Shown here: positions 29,835 through 37,688 of the stretch, piece by piece
Position numbering within the stretch: position 1 is the first letter of the stretch
Layout: every line of letters starts with the position of its first letter
NCBI RefSeq assembly: GCF_001931675.1
Contig: NZ_CP014839.1
Coordinates: forward strand, 930,001-994,000
Source: Pandoraea thiooxydans
Lineage (GTDB): Bacteria; Pseudomonadota; Gammaproteobacteria; Burkholderiales; Burkholderiaceae
Length of the DNA stretch: 64,000 bases
Direction of reading: 5' to 3'
Made by a program: the position numbers and the translations under genes
The notes under the pieces: generated by a model
Told to the model about the DNA's origin: nothing
The model's database searches: none
What the model saw: the letters and a program-made list of their open reading frames with translations, nothing else

Positions 29835-29871
29835 CGGGCTAGCAAGCATATGCTTGCTAGCCCGTTTTTTT
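29835..29871 (+). terminator. Rho-independent terminator after the tRNA gene
   Basis: A perfect 15-bp palindrome (CGGGCTAGCAAGCAT with its complement, 29835-29864) followed by seven T. It ends the rpoD/tRNA transcript. Confidence 0.85.
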
Positions 29872-29999
29872 ATTGCGCGACGATTTCACGAGAGGAGCGA
29901 TCGACATGGTCGTCAATCCACGATATTTCCCGCTTGCGAGACGACGGGGCAACGGCGCGTGCCGCCCGAACCTGGGGTGCCTCCGAATCTTTTGCTCGT

Positions 30000-30815
30000 T
30001 TAGCGATGACTGGCTGTATCAAACACAGGCATATCTTCGAGATCACAAAGAAAAGAAGAGAGAGCGGAAGGAAAGCCTTGCGAATAGGGAGTCGGCTGTG
30101 TGGCTATCCGTCTTGGATTGGATTTTATGTGCTCGATAAAGAGCGATTCGTCCAGCTGTGAGTCAATTAGCGCATTGAAGACATTCGTATCGTGAATCAG
30201 CTGTATCCATCGCGCGGAGTGACACTGTATGTGCGGGTGTGAAATCACGTGCTGGTGATAGATATCGTAGACGTTTTCTCCATTGAACCGCGGGCAAAAT
30301 CTCGTCAGAAACGGTGAGCGGTTGTAATACACTTCCTGCCAGCATTCTTTCGTGACGTGATAACCTCGTGTCGCGACCACGTGCGTGAATCGAATATTGT
30401 TTTCGATTGCTCTTTGAATCGCTCGATTAATCTCTTCAAAATAGTTGTCGGCCAAAGCATCGTCCGAATCAACGCGAGACAGTGCAATGTTGGTATATCC
30501 CGCCCGTGTGATTTCTTCGTTGACCTGTTGGATATGATTTTTGTCTTTTGAAAAAACAGGGGTAACGATGTCGGAAAATAGATGCTCAAATTTTCTGTAA
30601 TCTGCCTCGTCAGTTTCATCCATCAGGAGAAAATTTTTAAGGCTCTTAACCTTTTGACGCCGCAGTGACGCCGCCAGGAACCGACGAAACAATGCAACTC
30701 TGTAGGCGAACCATTTGCTTCTATTCTCTTCTGGTCCGTAGGCAATTTCCTGCCACTCTGGATTCAACTTAAGCGAAAATCGAACCACCACGAGGTTGTT
30801 GATCTCCATACCCAT
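30000..30815 (-). CDS. Putative rhamnosyltransferase-family glycosyltransferase
   Basis: 271 residues. Pattern of the bacterial 'putative rhamnosyl transferase' family: start NNLVVVRFSLKL, DETDEADYRKFEHLF, TNIALSRVDSDDALADNYFEEINRA with the DSDD nucleotide-sugar/metal motif, HVVATRGYHV and a C-terminal SARWIQLIHDTN. It would act on surface polysaccharide. Codon use is clearly A+T-richer than its neighbours, a sign of transfer. An IS21 element ends 19 bp before its ATG at 30815, so its native promoter has been displaced. No other polysaccharide genes lie nearby. Confidence 0.75.
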   Translation of the reverse strand: MGMEINNLVVVRFSLKLNPEWQEIAYGPEENRSKWFAYRVALFRRFLAASLRRQKVKSLKNFLLMDETDEADYRKFEHLFSDIVTPVFSKDKNHIQQVNEEITRAGYTNIALSRVDSDDALADNYFEEINRAIQRAIENNIRFTHVVATRGYHVTKECWQEVYYNRSPFLTRFCPRFNGENVYDIYHQHVISHPHIQCHSARWIQLIHDTNVFNALIDSQLDESLFIEHIKSNPRRIATQPTPYSQGFPSALSSFLCDLEDMPVFDTASHR

Positions 30816-30834
30816 CGTGTGAATCGACTTGTGC

Positions 30835-30863
30835 TGTTACGCGCGGAGTAAAAATGAGCCACT
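30835..30863 (+). repeat. Left terminal inverted repeat of the IS21 element
   Basis: 29 bp starting TGTTACGCGC and ending TGAGCCACT. It matches the right end in 22 of 29 positions by eye. A second internal copy of the same motif follows at 30871-30888, a tandem arrangement typical of IS21-family ends, where multiple IstA sites are needed. Confidence 0.85.
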
Positions 30864-30870
30864 TCGCGCG

Positions 30871-30888
30871 AAGTAAATCTGAGCCACT
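30871..30888 (+). repeat. Internal copy of the IS21 end motif
   Basis: AAGTAAATCTGAGCCACT, identical to the core of the right inverted repeat (reverse complement at 32761-32778). Second transposase-binding site at the left end. Confidence 0.8.
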
Positions 30889-30924
30889 TTTTCGTAAAGT
30901 CGGATCTTTTTGCGCGAGATCCGA

Positions 30925-32750
<1,826 letters not shown>

Positions 32751-32760
32751 ACCGCCGCCT

Positions 32761-32789
32761 AGTGGCTCAGATTTACTTTGCGTTTGACA
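32761..32789 (-). repeat. Right terminal inverted repeat of the IS21 element
   Basis: Reading inward on the minus strand it begins TGTCAAACGC and ends TGAGCCACT, aligned without gaps to the left end. GTGC follows directly outside. Confidence 0.85.
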
Positions 32790-33048
32790 GTGCTGCATTT
32801 TTTCCATTATGCGCGCCATTCGTGATTACCATTCGCATTATGGCCGTTGACAAAAATGAGTTTAACAGCGCACGCGCAGCCGTATTGAGTTAGCGAAAAC
32901 CTCCTCGATTCGTCACGGGAGCGTGTGTGCCGGTGAGTATCTACCCGGCGGAAGATGTCGGCCGGCTAGCAGCAAAGCGCGGTAGCGCGAGGCTGTCGAG
33001 CATGTGATTTATCGCGGCGGAAATCGAAATCCGCCTTAAACGACGAGC

Positions 33049-33143
33049 AAAAAAAATGGCCAGCAATCTGCTGGCCATAAAATCCACCAGGAGGAGGTGG
33101 AGGAGACAGGTGAATAATATCAGGGAAATCCCTATCAGGGATA
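33049..33143 (-). ncRNA. Candidate ~95-nt sRNA with an anti-Shine-Dalgarno hairpin loop
   Basis: On the minus strand three stem-loops follow one another: ATCCCT-GAT-AGGGAT (33128-33142); CCACC-TCCTCCT-GGTGG (33084-33100), whose loop is complementary to Shine-Dalgarno AGGAGGA; and a terminator stem ATGGCCAGCA-GAT-TGCTGGCCAT (33056-33078) followed by eight T. CTCCT lies just 5' of the second hairpin, extending the C/U-rich pairing surface. A promoter is placed correctly upstream. No open frame of coding quality covers it. The layout recalls sRNAs with CCUCC-type loops in alpha- and beta-proteobacteria. Confidence 0.6.
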
Positions 33144-33147
33144 GCTC

Positions 33148-33176
33148 TTAATAGAGGTGTTGCTCTATTGCAACAA
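33148..33176 (-). promoter_or_regulatory. Sigma-70 promoter of the candidate sRNA
   Basis: Minus strand: -35 TTGTTG (33171-33176), exactly 17-bp spacer, -10 TATTAA (33148-33153). Start is expected near 33142, at the foot of the first hairpin. Confidence 0.5.
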
Positions 33177-33294
33177 TTGAGCCGGTCAGCGCCTATATTG
33201 CCGCCTGTAACGCATTGCAGCACTGCCGGCTGGCTGGGCAATGCACAATGGCCAGCAACCCCACAATATTCGTTTGGCATGAGGTCGACCGTTG

Positions 33295-33882
33295 ATGAAT
33301 CCGAATTTCGCACGTCTTCGTGAATTTGTAACGGCCTTCGGGGCGTTGGTGGCAGCTCGGCCCAGCGAGGCAGACTTGCTGCGCGAAGGCGAACCGCTTT
33401 TGGCCGGCCTGGTGTCGGTCGACGATTGGCTGCCGGCTGAATATGCTCAGCCGGATCCGGCCCGCTACACCCAATATCTGCTGCACGCCGATTCCGAGCA
33501 GCGTTTCTCGATCGTCAGCTTTGTGTGGGGCCCCGGACAGTCGACGCCGATCCACGATCACACCGTGTGGGGAATCATAGGATTGCTGCGAGGCGCCGAA
33601 TATTCGCAGCCCTATCGCCTGGCGCCTGGCGATCGGCCTATCGTGCAGGGCCCGGCCAAGTTGCTGGAGCCGGGGCAGGTCGAAGTCGTTTCGCCGACGG
33701 TCGGCGACGTCCATCAGGTACGCAACGCTTTCGATGACCGCGCATCGATCAGCATCCACGTCTATGGCGCCAACATCGGCGGCGTCCGGCGATCGGTCTA
33801 TCTGCCAGAAGGCGGCCGCAAAAGCTTCGTCTCCGGCTATTCGAACGCCGTCTTGCCCAATATCTGGAGCCTCAACGCATGA
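33295..33882 (+). CDS. Cupin thiol dioxygenase, 3-mercaptopropionate dioxygenase-like
   Basis: 195 residues from ATG 33295 (adjacent TTG at 33292 is less likely). Cysteine-dioxygenase fold: first cupin motif TPIHDHTVWG gives His87 and His89, second gives His140 (GDVHQVRN), the three iron ligands. The substrate position reads YTQY (Gln60) where cysteine dioxygenases carry Arg; with His87/89/140 this is the same spacing as P. aeruginosa 3-mercaptopropionate dioxygenase (Gln62, His89/91/142). So a 3-mercaptopropionate substrate is inferred over cysteine. Product would be a sulfinic acid. It stands alone. Confidence 0.8.
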   Translation: MNPNFARLREFVTAFGALVAARPSEADLLREGEPLLAGLVSVDDWLPAEYAQPDPARYTQYLLHADSEQRFSIVSFVWGPGQSTPIHDHTVWGIIGLLRGAEYSQPYRLAPGDRPIVQGPAKLLEPGQVEVVSPTVGDVHQVRNAFDDRASISIHVYGANIGGVRRSVYLPEGGRKSFVSGYSNAVLPNIWSLNA

Positions 33883-33963
33883 GGTGAGCCGGTCTGGCCG
33901 CTTTCACGATTGCATTACCGTCACAGTGTGCGACGTAGCAGGGCGCCGGCTGGCGCCGTGGCC

Positions 33964-34428
33964 TCACGTCGTCTCGGGAGACTTCACCAGCAGCAGCGGC
34001 AAGGTCGAGATGCGCAGCAGCGCTTCCGCCACGCTGCCCAGCAGCAGACGGGTCACGCCGCGCCGGCCGTGCGTGCCCAGCACCACCACATCGGCTTTCC
34101 AGGCGGTTGCCTCGGCGAGGATGGCCTCGGCGATGGTTTGCGCTCCGACATCGAGATCGAGCCGCTTGATGTCGGCGGCGACACCCTTGGCCTGCAACGG
34201 TGCCAGCGCCGCCTGCAGGATGTCATCGGCGTCCTTCTCCAGGACGGCTTGAGTATCGACCGGTACAAAGCCGGCATAGGCGCCGGCGGCCGACGGGTCG
34301 AGCATCGGCGGCACGACGGACACCAGATGGATCTTGCCTTGTGTGAGACCGACCAGCTTGACGGCCTCGTCAAGCGCGCGTTGCGACGGCGTGCTGCCGT
34401 CGACGGCAACCAGGATGCGTTCGTACAT
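33964..34428 (-). CDS. Universal stress protein, UspA family
   Basis: 154 residues. Starts YERILVAVDGSTPSQRALDEAV and carries the ATP-binding signature VVLGTHGRRGVTRLLLGSVAEALL with the C-terminal PLLLVKS strand. ATP-binding Usp proteins support survival under starvation and other stresses. It converges on the thiol dioxygenase gene. Specific role unknown. Confidence 0.92.
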   Translation of the reverse strand: MYERILVAVDGSTPSQRALDEAVKLVGLTQGKIHLVSVVPPMLDPSAAGAYAGFVPVDTQAVLEKDADDILQAALAPLQAKGVAADIKRLDLDVGAQTIAEAILAEATAWKADVVVLGTHGRRGVTRLLLGSVAEALLRISTLPLLLVKSPETT

Positions 34429-34548
34429 AGGATGTTCTCTCGATGGGAGGGCGCTTTACGAGGATCAACGCCGTTCGTCATGACTACCCCGCCATTGTCG
34501 CACCGGCGGGCGGTATCGTCATCAGCAGTGCAAATTAATCAGCGCGAC

Positions 34549-34788
34549 TCAATTCGGCGCCGCCTTGCACGCGATCAGCATCGAGCGCGTGGCATCGTCG
34601 TCATCGTTGCGCTGGATCACGTCGAAGCCGGCCGGACCGCATTGCTTGGCCGCGCGCAACCGGCATAAGTCCCATGAACTGCCCGGACAGGAGATCAGGT
34701 TGGTCGGCCGATTGTCGGATGTGAATAACGGCGGAGCCGAACTGCAGGCAGTCAAGACAAGCGCGCTCACGCAGATGGCAGTTTTCAT
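34549..34788 (-). CDS. Small lipoprotein with four downstream cysteines
   Basis: 79 residues from ATG 34788. The signal peptide MKTAICVSALVLTACSS ends in a lipobox L-T-A-C, so the mature N-terminal Cys should be acylated. The mature part has further Cys residues (ISCPGSSWDLCRLRAAKQCGP and IACKAAPN) that could form two disulfides. No known domain is recognised. An in-frame start at 34842 would bury the signal peptide and is rejected. Confidence 0.7.
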   Translation of the reverse strand: MKTAICVSALVLTACSSAPPLFTSDNRPTNLISCPGSSWDLCRLRAAKQCGPAGFDVIQRNDDDDATRSMLIACKAAPN

Positions 34789-34963
34789 GACGAGAGAGTG
34801 TGTCGAGGAAATCCAGATGCCGGGAGTATAGCGCGGCGCCACGCGCTTGCGCGGCGAGCCCGATGCAAAGAAGGGCGGGCCGCGCTACAGTAGCGGTTGA
34901 TGCCCTGCTGGCGCCGCTTGGCGCGGCTCTGCCGTCCTGCTGGGCGCTTTATGGAGGCATTCA

Positions 34964-35770
34964 GTGCACCCCTCGCCGACGACTTCACCCACGCCGGAAG
35001 CGCTCGCCGCTTTTGCGGTCGAGCTCGCTCAGGCGGTACGCCCCATTTCACGGCGGTGGTTTCGCCACCCGCTGGAAATCGAATCCAAAGCCGATCTGAG
35101 CCCGGTCACCATCGCCGACCGCGAGATCGAACAAGCGCTGCGCCAGCGCATCGCCGAACGCTTTCCGCTGCACGGCATCCTGGGCGAGGAATTCGGCCTG
35201 GCGCACGGCGAGGCCGAATACGTCTGGTCGATCGATCCGATCGACGGCACACGCAGCTTCATCTCCGGATATCCGCTGTGGGGCACGCTGCTGGCGCTGC
35301 TGCACCATGGCGCGCCCGTGCTCGGCGTGATCGACGTGCCGGTGTTGAACGAGTGCTGGGTTGGCGTGCGCGGCCTCGGTACGCACCTGAACGGCGAACC
35401 GTGCCATACCGGTGCCCGCGGCAACCTGTCCGATGCCACGCTCTATGCCACCACGCCTGACATCTTCGACGCGGCCGAACTCGCCGTGTTCGATGCGCTG
35501 AGCCGTCGCGTCGGCATGCGCCGTTTCGGCGGCGACTGCTACAGCTATGCGCTATTGGCCGCCGGGCATGTCGATCTCGTCATGGAGGCAGGCTTGCAGC
35601 CCTATGACTACCTGGCGCTCGCGCCGGTCATCGAAGGTGCGGGGGGCGTCATCACCGATTGGCAGGGCCGCGCCTTGACGTTGAGCTCCGGCTCGCGGGT
35701 GCTGGCCGCGGCGAACCCGGAACTCCATCGGCAGGCCCTGGATGTGATTCGCGCGGCCCCACCCGGGTAA
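34964..35770 (+). CDS. Inositol-monophosphatase-family phosphatase, HisN-like (histidinol-phosphatase type)
   Basis: 268 residues from GTG 34964, with GGAGG six nt upstream. IMPase fold: ADREIEQALRQRIAERFPLHGILGEEFG gives the first metal acid, SIDPIDGTRSFISGYP the second metal site, and GGDCYSYALLAAGHVDLVMEAGLQPYDYLALAPVIEGAGG the third. The GTRSFISGYPLWGTLLAL loop is typical of the HisN histidinol-phosphate phosphatases. It is not near other his genes, so inositol- or PAP-phosphatase activity stays possible. Confidence 0.85.
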   Translation: MHPSPTTSPTPEALAAFAVELAQAVRPISRRWFRHPLEIESKADLSPVTIADREIEQALRQRIAERFPLHGILGEEFGLAHGEAEYVWSIDPIDGTRSFISGYPLWGTLLALLHHGAPVLGVIDVPVLNECWVGVRGLGTHLNGEPCHTGARGNLSDATLYATTPDIFDAAELAVFDALSRRVGMRRFGGDCYSYALLAAGHVDLVMEAGLQPYDYLALAPVIEGAGGVITDWQGRALTLSSGSRVLAAANPELHRQALDVIRAAPPG

Positions 35771-35861
35771 GCGTTTGTAACAATCGACGCACAAATCCTT
35801 ACAGCACGTGCAAGCGCCAGCCCTTAACATGAAACGCATTCGCACCGCAGAAGGAATTCGC

Positions 35862-36179
35862 ATGAACGTCACCTGGTTTTTCATGGCGGCAGCCATCTCG
35901 TTGGCTGCCGCGCTGTTCTCGCCGGCGTCGTCGGCGCGACCGCAGGCGAACGTAACCGTGATGATCGACCGGGCGCCGCCGCCGCCCGTCTACGAACGGA
36001 TGCCGCCGCCGCGTCGCGGCTATGTCTGGTCGCCCGGCTACTGGCGCTGGACCGGTCATCGCCACATCTGGGTCAACGGACAATGGGTGCGCGCGCGCCG
36101 CGGTTACCGCTACCAGCCGCCGCACTGGGTACGCGACGGACGCGAGTGGCGATTCTCTCCAGGTGACTGGCGTCGCTAG
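35862..36179 (+). CDS. Exported YXWGXW-repeat-type protein
   Basis: 105 residues from ATG 35862, chosen because GAAGGA lies six nt upstream and the protein then begins with a signal peptide (MNVTWFFMAAAISLAAALFSPASSA). The mature part is rich in Trp, Tyr, Arg and Pro, with repeats of the type GYVWSPGYWRW, HIWVNGQWVRAR, YQPPHWVRDGREWRF. Such small exported proteins are widespread in proteobacteria, function unknown. Starts further upstream (35808, 35829) lack a ribosome site. Confidence 0.75.
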   Translation: MNVTWFFMAAAISLAAALFSPASSARPQANVTVMIDRAPPPPVYERMPPPRRGYVWSPGYWRWTGHRHIWVNGQWVRARRGYRYQPPHWVRDGREWRFSPGDWRR

Positions 36180-36212
36180 CGAGGCGCTGCCGACGAGACT
36201 ACCGCGCGCGCC

Positions 36213-37688
36213 TTACGGAGAAGGGCTTGTCGTCAGCTTGAGCGCATCCAGAGCGCGCTCGCGCGCTGCCTGATGCGCCACGATTGGCGCGGGGTAGGTC
36301 TGGCCGAGCGTCAACCCGGCTGCTTCGCGCTGCGCTGGCGAAGCCTCCCACGGATGATGCACGACAGAGGTCGGTAAGCCGTCCAACTCCGGCACCCAGC
36401 GTTTCACATACACCGCCTGCGGATCGAATTTCTCCGCTTGCAGCACCGGATTGAAAATGCGGAAATACGGCGCCGCGTCGACGCCGGAGCCCGCCACCCA
36501 TTGCCAACTCGACGGATTGCTGGCCGGATCGGCATCCACCAGCGTATCCCAGAACCACGCCTCTCCGTCGCGCCAGTCGAGCAGCAGATGCTTGGCAAGA
36601 AACGACGCGCACACCATGCGCACGCGGTTGTGCATCCACCCGGTGGTCCACAGTTCGCGCATGCCGGCATCCACCAACGGATAGCCGGTGCGACCCTGCT
36701 GCCAGGCCCGCAATGCAGCCGGGTCGGTACGCCAGGGCATCGCATCGAAACGCGCTTGAAAATTGCGGCGCGCCAGATCGGGGAAATAATAAAGCTGGTG
36801 ATACGAGAATTCGCGCCAGCCGAGTTCGGCAAGCAGCTTGTCCAGATCGGTCTGGCTCGCGCGTGTCGTCCCGGCGCGCATCGCCGCCTTGGCTGCGTGC
36901 CAGATTTGACGGGGCGACAGATGGCCAAAGCGCAAATACGGCGACAGTCGGCTCGTGCCGGCCACATGCGGCAGGTCGCGGTGGTTGGCATAGCCTGCCA
37001 ATCCATCTTCCAGGAAGTCATCGAGCCGTTCGTGCGCAGCAGCCTCGCCGCGCCGCCAGGCGCGACGCAATCCCCCGGCCCAGTCCGGTGTGTGCGGCTC
37101 GAGCCGCAAGCTGGCCAGCGACACGGTGCGCATCTGCCCAGGCCAAGGATGAAAGGTCAGGGTGGCGGGCGCCGATAACGGAACGGCCGGTTCATCCTGC
37201 CGGGAGCATGCCCGCCAGTAGGCCGTGAAAACGCGAAACGGCTGCCCGGCGCCATTGAGCACCGTCCATGGCTCGGTCAGCAATTGGCCGTTGCTGCTGC
37301 GCACCGTGATGCCGCGTGCTTCCAGATTCTTTTTCAGGCCGCTGTCGAGCGCACGCTCGGCCGCGCCGTAACGGCGATTCCAGTAAACGGCGCCGGCGCC
37401 TGTTTGCGCCACCAGGGTTTCGATCTCTTGTGCCGCTGAGCCTTGCAATATCGCCAGGCGTCCGCCGAGCGAGCTCAGACTCGCATCGAGCGCTTCGAGC
37501 GCGCCGTGCAGCCACCAGCGCGCAGCGCCGCCAAGCGGGCGCAAACCGTCGCTTTGTTCGTCCAATACATAGACGCAGATCAGCGGGCGGCCCGATGCGG
37601 CAGCGTGATGCAGGGCGGGATTGTCCGCCACGCGCAGATCGTCGCGAAACCAGACGATCGCGGGTGACGGTGATGACGTTGCGGACAT
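36213..37688 (-). CDS. phrB: Deoxyribodipyrimidine photolyase (CPD class I)
   Basis: 491 residues. N-terminal antenna domain starts IVWFRDDLRVADNPAL. The C-terminal FAD domain carries LDKLLAELGWREFSYH, the signature TGYPLVDAGMRELWTTGWMHNRVRM and DADPASNPSSWQWVAGSG. It repairs UV-made cyclobutane dimers using blue light. It is the last gene of an eight-gene minus-strand operon, 24 bp after the SDR gene. Linkage of a photolyase to lipid-modifying genes is known from singlet-oxygen regulons such as that of sigma-E/ChrR in Rhodobacter. Confidence 0.94.
   Translation of the reverse strand: MSATSSPSPAIVWFRDDLRVADNPALHHAAASGRPLICVYVLDEQSDGLRPLGGAARWWLHGALEALDASLSSLGGRLAILQGSAAQEIETLVAQTGAGAVYWNRRYGAAERALDSGLKKNLEARGITVRSSNGQLLTEPWTVLNGAGQPFRVFTAYWRACSRQDEPAVPLSAPATLTFHPWPGQMRTVSLASLRLEPHTPDWAGGLRRAWRRGEAAAHERLDDFLEDGLAGYANHRDLPHVAGTSRLSPYLRFGHLSPRQIWHAAKAAMRAGTTRASQTDLDKLLAELGWREFSYHQLYYFPDLARRNFQARFDAMPWRTDPAALRAWQQGRTGYPLVDAGMRELWTTGWMHNRVRMVCASFLAKHLLLDWRDGEAWFWDTLVDADPASNPSSWQWVAGSGVDAAPYFRIFNPVLQAEKFDPQAVYVKRWVPELDGLPTSVVHHPWEASPAQREAAGLTLGQTYPAPIVAHQAARERALDALKLTTSPSP

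Follow-up and report, generated by a model that had tools for sequence, protein, structure and literature searches.

Rfam family RF02278 (Betaproteobacteria toxic sRNA) is represented in Burkholderia cenocepacia J2315 by four RNAs of 57-92 nt, which have been mapped by dRNA-seq; ncS03, ncS05 and ncS62 are reported to be 57-67 nt long, and ncS27 is 92 nt long and processed (PMC4603805, PMC5688073). These double-hairpin RNAs are described as having CU-rich regions complementary to ribosome-binding sites (PMC4603805, PMC5688073), and their functions have been studied in part (PMC5688073, PMC10987360). Overexpression of ncS27 slows growth and its silencing raises growth; ncS27, ncS05 and ncS03 are reported to go up 4.3-fold, 6.9-fold and 8.0-fold, respectively, in glucose medium, and the RF02278 RNAs of this species to go up in several of the conditions biofilm, starvation and glucose medium (PMC5688073). 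Growth inhibition of Escherichia coli upon expression has been reported for the family (cited in PMC4603805, PMC5688073). In Bordetella pertussis, a preprint describes how the pyrimidine-rich 5' end of the sRNA S17 represses a target directly, as judged by compensatory mutations, with ~7.5-fold repression of one target, most of it through Site 1 at the 5' end (PMC11722255). The same preprint gives 70 genes (77%) with matches in the RBS region, reports no detected effect for BP0442, one of the further candidates, and notes that the S17 level drops without Hfq (PMC11722255). Overexpressed S17S was reported there as not toxic in exponentially growing E. coli (PMC11722255), so the word 'toxic' does not suit every RF02278 relative. 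With the B. cenocepacia studies and S17 in hand, both the kind of RNA considered here and its mechanism are already known.

Identity and anatomy of the sRNA locus

The window is a 64,000-nt stretch of Pandoraea thiooxydans DNA (contig NZ_CP014839.1, positions 930,001 to 994,000), in which a preliminary description had proposed an undescribed-looking sRNA gene with an anti-Shine-Dalgarno (anti-SD) loop, possibly related to a Burkholderia sRNA. A check of the window sequence found on the minus strand every sequence element that had been listed, each in its place. We scanned 30000-36500 with all Rfam families and obtained for 33108-33049 (minus strand) a match to RF02278 at 53.1 bits (E 7.9e-9) over model positions 1-64 of 64, which is a margin of 3 bits over the gathering cut-off of 50; this match and one tRNA are all the gathering-level Rfam matches in the whole window. 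The feature is a real sRNA gene and a Pandoraea member of the known RF02278 family. The proposed relation to Burkholderia sRNAs is thereby borne out, and the RNA can no longer be called undescribed, since it lies above the family threshold and its B. cenocepacia relatives had already been mapped. RF02423 Bp1_781 (ncS02), which shares with the window copy a CU-rich stretch and a 3' hairpin-plus-terminator, failed its cut-off (21.2 vs 80 bits). None of the four Rfam matches at E<=1 belongs to an alphaproteobacterial anti-SD family such as alpha-r14, which Rfam 15 may lack. The elements of the locus are as follows.

33049..33108, minus strand: core of the RF02278 double-hairpin sRNA, predicted short transcript of ~60 nt (cmscan, 53.1 bits)
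33099..33107, minus strand: anti-SD 5' tail GUCUCCUCC, single-stranded, its last bases also in the stem of the first hairpin
33106-33099, minus strand: TCTCCTCC, within the 5' tail
33084..33100, minus strand: hairpin CCACC-UCCUCCU-GGUGG with the anti-SD loop (covariation)
33049..33078, minus strand: intrinsic terminator, 10-bp stem plus U tract (strong covariation, helix 3); in the sequence, stem 33078-33056 and T8 33056-33049
33140-33133 and 33125-33118, minus strand: two copies of CCCTGATA (sequence)
33122..33133, minus strand: dyad AGGGATTTCCCT, invariant in 20/20 aligned Pandoraea copies
33114..33122, minus strand: proximal extended -10, TG-A-TATTAT, with a start predicted near 33107
33119-33114, minus strand: TATTAT hexamer of the proximal -10 (aligned copies)
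33148..33176, minus strand: distal promoter TTGTTG-N17-TATTAA (TTGTTG 33176-33171, spacer 17, TATTAA 33153-33148), which would yield a ~94-nt RNA from about 33142
33159..33174, minus strand: inverted repeat GTTGC-N6-GCAAC over the distal -35, in the window and L051 only
33295..33882, plus strand: divergent CDO_I-type thiol dioxygenase gene (PF05995, E 3e-8)
30910-32750: IS21 istA/istB pair, between the tRNA-Met behind rpoD and the sRNA
30000-30815, minus strand: rhamnosyltransferase-like ORF, likewise between this tRNA-Met and the sRNA

The window copy shows the two covarying hairpins, the second being the terminator, that characterise RF02278. Like B. cenocepacia ncS03, ncS05, ncS27 and ncS62 it also has a GUCUCCUCC 5' end, a CU-rich loop, a T-run terminator and several copies per genome, whereas it differs from these relatives in having its own promoter type (AGGGATTTCCCT plus TATTAT or TATAGT) and in lacking the core of a PhaR box. 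What it adds to the known family is therefore a Pandoraea branch with a corrected anatomy. The stretch 33145-33040 (106 nt) folds at -34.5 kcal/mol with a z of -4.28, and none of 200 shuffles was equally stable; the window has one TCCTCCT loop closed by a perfect 5-bp stem, where 0.0087 are expected from base composition. Of the three stem-loops that had been claimed, the anti-SD hairpin and the terminator stand, and the first (5') one is only one among several competing folds.

The host genome has four RF02278 matches at E<=0.001, three of them above the cut-off, of which the window copy scores lowest. A family match was found in 48/61 genomes (host plus relatives) and was above the cut-off in 41/61; in an even draw of Burkholderiales genomes, made with stricter filters, the corresponding figures were 128/200 and 75/200. 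A model built from the 94-nt Pandoraea form matched in 90/120 genomes of the GTDB family. Copies of the window type, judged by score (53-55 bits), are present in 30/32 genus members and absent from G003 (1.2 Mb) and G029; the window-type promoter-plus-core pattern was seen on 20 named contigs, every one of them from Pandoraea. Viral contigs gave 0 exact matches when searched with a 27-base pattern of the core, and a plasmid search with the 271-bp region of the window copy gave no match. For another host copy, L001, short matches to its DNA turned up in 29 plasmid or chromid records (including H5-H19) from Paraburkholderia, Caballeronia, Burkholderia and Pandoraea, and were not scored as RF02278; these matches suggest that RF02278 copies may spread on replicons. 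In family f8 we noticed 8-9 RF02278 matches each in G043, G195 and G314, one in G239 and two in G278.

Conservation of the RNA

We built a structure-fitted alignment of 94 matches, which includes two spurious rows (window:29811 and L008:379). Paired cells amounted to 93.8% in this alignment vs 63.7% in shuffles, and none of 500 shuffles reached any of five measures; the fold of the RNA is supported by this covariation. In the anti-SD-loop hairpin 97.8% of the cells are paired, and changes on both sides, mostly rare, occur at each of its six pairs. It had been predicted that such changes would surround an invariant TCCTCCT loop; the stem behaves in this way and the loop does not, as exact TCCTCCT is found in 46/94 rows, while 74/94 have either CCTCC or CTCCT in the loop. 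By comparison, the 5' TCTCCTCC is kept in 91/94 rows. The most invariant element is thus the 5' UCUCCUCC tail and not the loop, which had been taken as decisive and becomes the second conserved anti-SD element. This agrees with S17, where Site 1 is described as dominating the repression.

A second alignment comprised 20 Pandoraea copies, the window plus 19 fetched out of the 29 other genus members. The RNA core is nearly invariant in it, being exact in 19/19 fetched copies, and AGGGATTTCCCTGATAT directly upstream of the core is invariant in all 20. The two CCCTGATA repeats near the 5' end are both present in the window as described, yet the first is not conserved and is replaced by CCCGTCTA and similar sequences in 18/20 aligned copies.

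Start site, neighbouring genes and alternative explanations

The preliminary description took TTGTTG-N17-TATTAA as the promoter, with a start at 33142 and an RNA of ~95 nt. Comparison of the Pandoraea copies points elsewhere. A proximal -10 lies 6-7 nt ahead of GTCTCC in 20/20 copies (TATTAT in the window and L051, TATAGT in 18), and in the window, at 33119-33114, it predicts a ~60-nt RNA. The distal TATTAA is found in 2/20 copies, the window and L051, the remaining ones differing strongly there, and in L051 even the distal -35 reads GCGTTG instead of TTGTTG. A promoter scan of 32500-33800 returned no site at its own thresholds. We also classed 105 unique promoters of the family, 18 of window type, by a simple -10 score (109 before four second anchors within one RNA were dropped; L004 yielded no anchor). 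The proximal -10 class holds 56/105 promoters, the 18 of window type among them (47 with the -10 at 7 nt and 9 at 6 nt before GTCTCC), the long class, with a -10 33-48 nt upstream, 42/105, and 7/105 fall in neither; a comparable -10 match occurs in 207/1470 control windows. A start at the core, and hence the short class, agrees with the 57-67 nt mapped for ncS03, ncS05 and ncS62, and the long class with the 92 nt of ncS27. The conserved proximal -10, together with the fit to the short class, suggests that the window copy most likely makes a short RNA, with a long form being possible as a lineage-specific trait. That the ~94-nt form is instead the main transcript, made from the distal promoter like ncS27 and perhaps later processed to the short form, is a reading to which we give some room and which we consider rather doubtful. 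In its favour, the distal -10 of the window lies 40 nt before GTCTCC, a spacing shared by 23/42 long-class promoters, ncS27 is described as processed from 92 nt, and AGGGATTTCCCT would give the longer RNA a 5' hairpin; the poor conservation of the distal promoter and of the first CCCTGATA repeat speaks against it. The AGGGATTTCCCT dyad may be an operator-like DNA element ahead of the -10; given a long transcript, it would instead form this 5' hairpin.

The window sRNA is flanked by the dioxygenase gene and, on the other side, by rpoD with tRNA-Met; the IS21 pair and the rhamnosyltransferase-like ORF (region 29870-32950) are missing from G024 (L051), which otherwise has the same layout. Among the 20 copies, UspA and rpoD lie near the sRNA only in the window and L051. 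The thiol dioxygenase gene is divergent beside the window sRNA, as had been described, its start being 187 nt from that of the sRNA core, and one may ask whether this gene is controlled in cis, either by the RNA itself or by transcription running through the sRNA promoter. A divergent dioxygenase homologue adjoins the sRNA in 4/20 copies, namely the window, L051 (90% identity), L045 (62%) and L050 (61%), and because L045 and L050, which have no rpoD nearby, show the pairing with the other promoter type, it looks old in the genus. In 16/20 copies, however, no dioxygenase homologue lies within ~4 kb and the RNA sequence is unchanged. The gene is therefore not needed for the sRNA, control in cis appears improbable, and the dioxygenase may be a long-standing neighbour which most species have lost, keeping the sRNA. 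Still less credible is that there is no functional RNA and that the feature is a repeat-like or decaying copy. Several family copies per genome, and the lowest score among the host's three above-threshold copies, would suit such a copy, but near-total conservation in 20/20 Pandoraea copies despite altered surroundings and upstream DNA makes us regard it as very improbable.

A search for exact AGGGATTTCCCT sites found one in 12/13 genus members, G003 being the exception, and in 1/8 genomes of other families, and a second one in 4/21 genomes (G004, G007, G010 and G011). The second sites have a conserved surround (L129, L132, L134 and L143); that of L132 lies between an MFS transporter gene and a divergent GntR/FCD regulator gene. 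With second sites in 4/21 genomes, one of them examined closely, there are too few to name this regulator as the AGGGATTTCCCT-binding factor, and MerR-type and HexR-type operators, also weighed, were set aside because no evidence favoured them. Upstream of the sRNA, L034-L050 and L052 mostly carry a conserved GCGACGAATTGTCGC palindrome with TGTGGTTTTTCTACA (with variants) and a similar TGTGGTTTTTCTCCA further up, which are absent from the window and L051; L044 is without the palindrome.

Predicted mode of action

Taken together, we hold it very probable that the window encodes a ~60-nt RF02278 RNA made from the proximal -10 which blocks ribosome binding on a subset of mRNAs, probably with Hfq. 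Transcription would start at the proximal -10 and end at the terminator (33078-33049). By mimicking the sequence with which the ribosome anchors itself, the single-stranded 5' GUCUCCUCC, aided by the UCCUCCU loop, would then pair with the Shine-Dalgarno regions of the target mRNAs and keep ribosomes from those with GGAGGAGA-type RBSs. For Pandoraea we infer the start site, the use of Hfq and the targets. Pairing at the RBS is the likely mechanism by analogy with Bordetella S17, which resembles the window copy in its pyrimidine-rich anti-RBS 5' end plus first loop and whose Site 1, as described, has the GUCUCCUCC tail as its counterpart. The two differ in origin, the short form of S17 being reported as an RNase E product of a 190-nt, BvgA-dependent RNA, while the window copy has a -10 of its own close to the core. 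Translational regulation, as proposed earlier, is thus likely, and the word 'global' goes beyond the evidence in the window, where 7-nt seed matches at candidate RBSs occur in only 4/46 coding-like ORFs (0/46 in windows 150 nt downstream). A letter-reversed seed, likewise pyrimidine-rich, gave the same 4/46 at 7 nt, which makes this a weak test.

PhaR boxes at the promoters of other family copies

The main interest of the family lies in its promoter logic, which the window copy does not share. Many promoters of other RF02278 copies have in common the motif TTGCRNYGCA over the -35, and this motif includes the core of the consensus YTKNTGCRNYGCANMAR given for Ralstonia eutropha PhaR (PMC12849132). 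The exact core TGCRNYGCA is found in 59/87 promoters of other copies from the GTDB family against 26/2592 background windows, these being flanking DNA of mixed coding and intergenic character and so possibly biased. The counts per class, with YTKNTGCRNYGCANMAR sought within 110 nt upstream, were as follows.

Short class: exact core 23/38; YTKNTGCRNYGCANMAR at <=2 mismatches 26/38
Long class: exact core 33/42; YTKNTGCRNYGCANMAR at <=2 mismatches 30/42
Unclassified: exact core 3/7; YTKNTGCRNYGCANMAR at <=2 mismatches 0/7
Window type: exact core 0/18; YTKNTGCRNYGCANMAR at <=2 mismatches 2/18
Controls, YTKNTGCRNYGCANMAR at <=2 mismatches: flanking windows 39/2592; shuffles 19/2100

Short-class promoters have the box centred at -28 or -31, long-class promoters mostly at -57 to -64. 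Since it overlaps the TTGC of the -35, the promoter itself could account for part of the signal; against a plain promoter signal argue the GCA half and the control TGC-YNR-GCA, with 0/87 matches. The other five T/G/C orderings of the same palindrome gave 0 or 1/87 and the control palindrome AGC-RNY-GCT 11/87. The exact core is missing from 28/87 family promoters. Zero-mismatch YTKNTGCRNYGCANMAR sites were found at five loci (L053, L078, L081, L082 and L109); a 68-nt L081 query matched plasmid p1 of Cupriavidus sp. KK10 at 92.6% with the core intact, which makes Cupriavidus the probable source of these loci; the consensus originated in the same genus. Twelve phaR or phasin loci served as a positive control, and every one of them has 2-3 core sites, those of L216 both lying between phaR and phasin; core density is 25 in 40,240 bases at phaR/phasin loci vs 85 in 371,349 at the sRNA loci L034-L123.

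The host has PhaR, and its other above-threshold copies, L001 and L002, have a PhaR-like box with one mismatch. The best PhaR match of the window has two mismatches, both within the core, and its GTTGC-N6-GCAAC repeat is at best a degenerate PhaR-like site. PhaR control of the window copy was rejected, as the core occurs in 0/18 unique window-type promoters. Upstream of L051/L062 (G024) we noticed a site that differs from the PhaR core by one base (TGCAACGCT, opposite strand), of which the window has a broken version; the lineage of the window and G024 may therefore have had a PhaR box.

A possible link of the RF02278 family to carbon storage

PhaR of R. eutropha is described as repressing phaP1 and as being sequestered on nascent granules (PMC12849132), and the Sinorhizobium sRNA MmgR as being repressed by AniA/PhaR (PMC8401924). 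For the family-wide lead alone, MmgR of S. meliloti is a precedent for PhaR control of an sRNA; unlike RF02278 it is an alphaproteobacterial RNA, reported to down-regulate phasins. A PhaR box over the -35, if real, would tie the RF02278 family to carbon storage, and we consider it somewhat more probable than its opposite that the RF02278 anti-SD sRNAs are an RNA arm of the PHB regulon, repressed by PhaR and made during carbon storage. PhaR would repress most RF02278 promoters through the box; when carbon is stored it would leave the DNA, titrated by nascent PHB granules, and the sRNAs would be made together with phasin and would shut off translation of mRNAs for uptake and catabolism of carbon sources and amino acids. 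Binding and repression by PhaR at the sRNA promoters, and release upon granule formation, are what we infer here. In some lineages a related RNA would belong to the 3' end of the phasin mRNA, and the window's Pandoraea copy would be a family member whose PhaR box has been lost or was never there. The higher levels reported for ncS27, ncS05 and ncS03 in glucose medium fit this model and are no proof of it. A limited search of the main text of literature naming RF02278 came across neither PhaR nor phasin, though the link may still be published, and another limited search, of excerpts of PhaR-sRNA literature in the Burkholderia and polyhydroxyalkanoate context, gave no link to the family.

PhaR (PF07879) is present in 136/200 genomes of the order. 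In a contrast of 45 PhaR-bearing with 27 PhaR-less genomes, among the loci listed, the core box occurs at 27/50 sRNA loci of the former (23 automatic and 27 picked) vs 1/35 of the latter (Fisher p 2.5e-7), and at family level, again among the loci listed, in 13/17 vs 1/11 (p 0.0013); L162 and L174 (no anchor) and the G238 locus (no PhaR match) were left out. The contrast is confounded by descent, as the PhaR-less genomes are mostly separate families with another conserved promoter. Among the loci listed, 23/50 of PhaR-bearing genomes lack the core, including all those sampled from f22 (3), f23 (3), f48 (2) and f43 (1), and the sole box-bearing PhaR-less locus is from an 85%-complete assembly (G260). 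Three PhaR-less genomes of the window's GTDB family with a fetched sRNA have no box at <=2 mismatches; the box is likewise absent from PhaR-bearing G069 and G104, of the same genus as one of the box-less PhaR-less genomes.

In three families, RF02278-like RNAs below the gathering score come immediately after phasin genes. In the host, L004 follows the phasin stop at 58 nt, and two members of its genus, G024 and G029, show a distance of 55 nt; in G323, of another family, such an RNA lies 15 nt after the phasin gene, and in a third family, beside phaR, it lies 33 nt (G208), 66 nt (G251) and 17 nt (G058) after it. This adjacency makes co-expression with phasin likely, as far as gene order can tell. 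Some of these cases were picked for their surroundings, L215-L217 for a nearby phaR and L258 for a nearby phasin; among 18 other copies examined, two (L243 and L244, close relatives of L004) are behind a phasin gene and 16 are not, and L218 (G249), with phaR ~6 kb off, is not behind one either. Many of the loci from PhaR-less genomes (L182-L214) often have another conserved element ~40-60 nt upstream of the sRNA, which reads roughly ATATTAGANAATNCTAAT.
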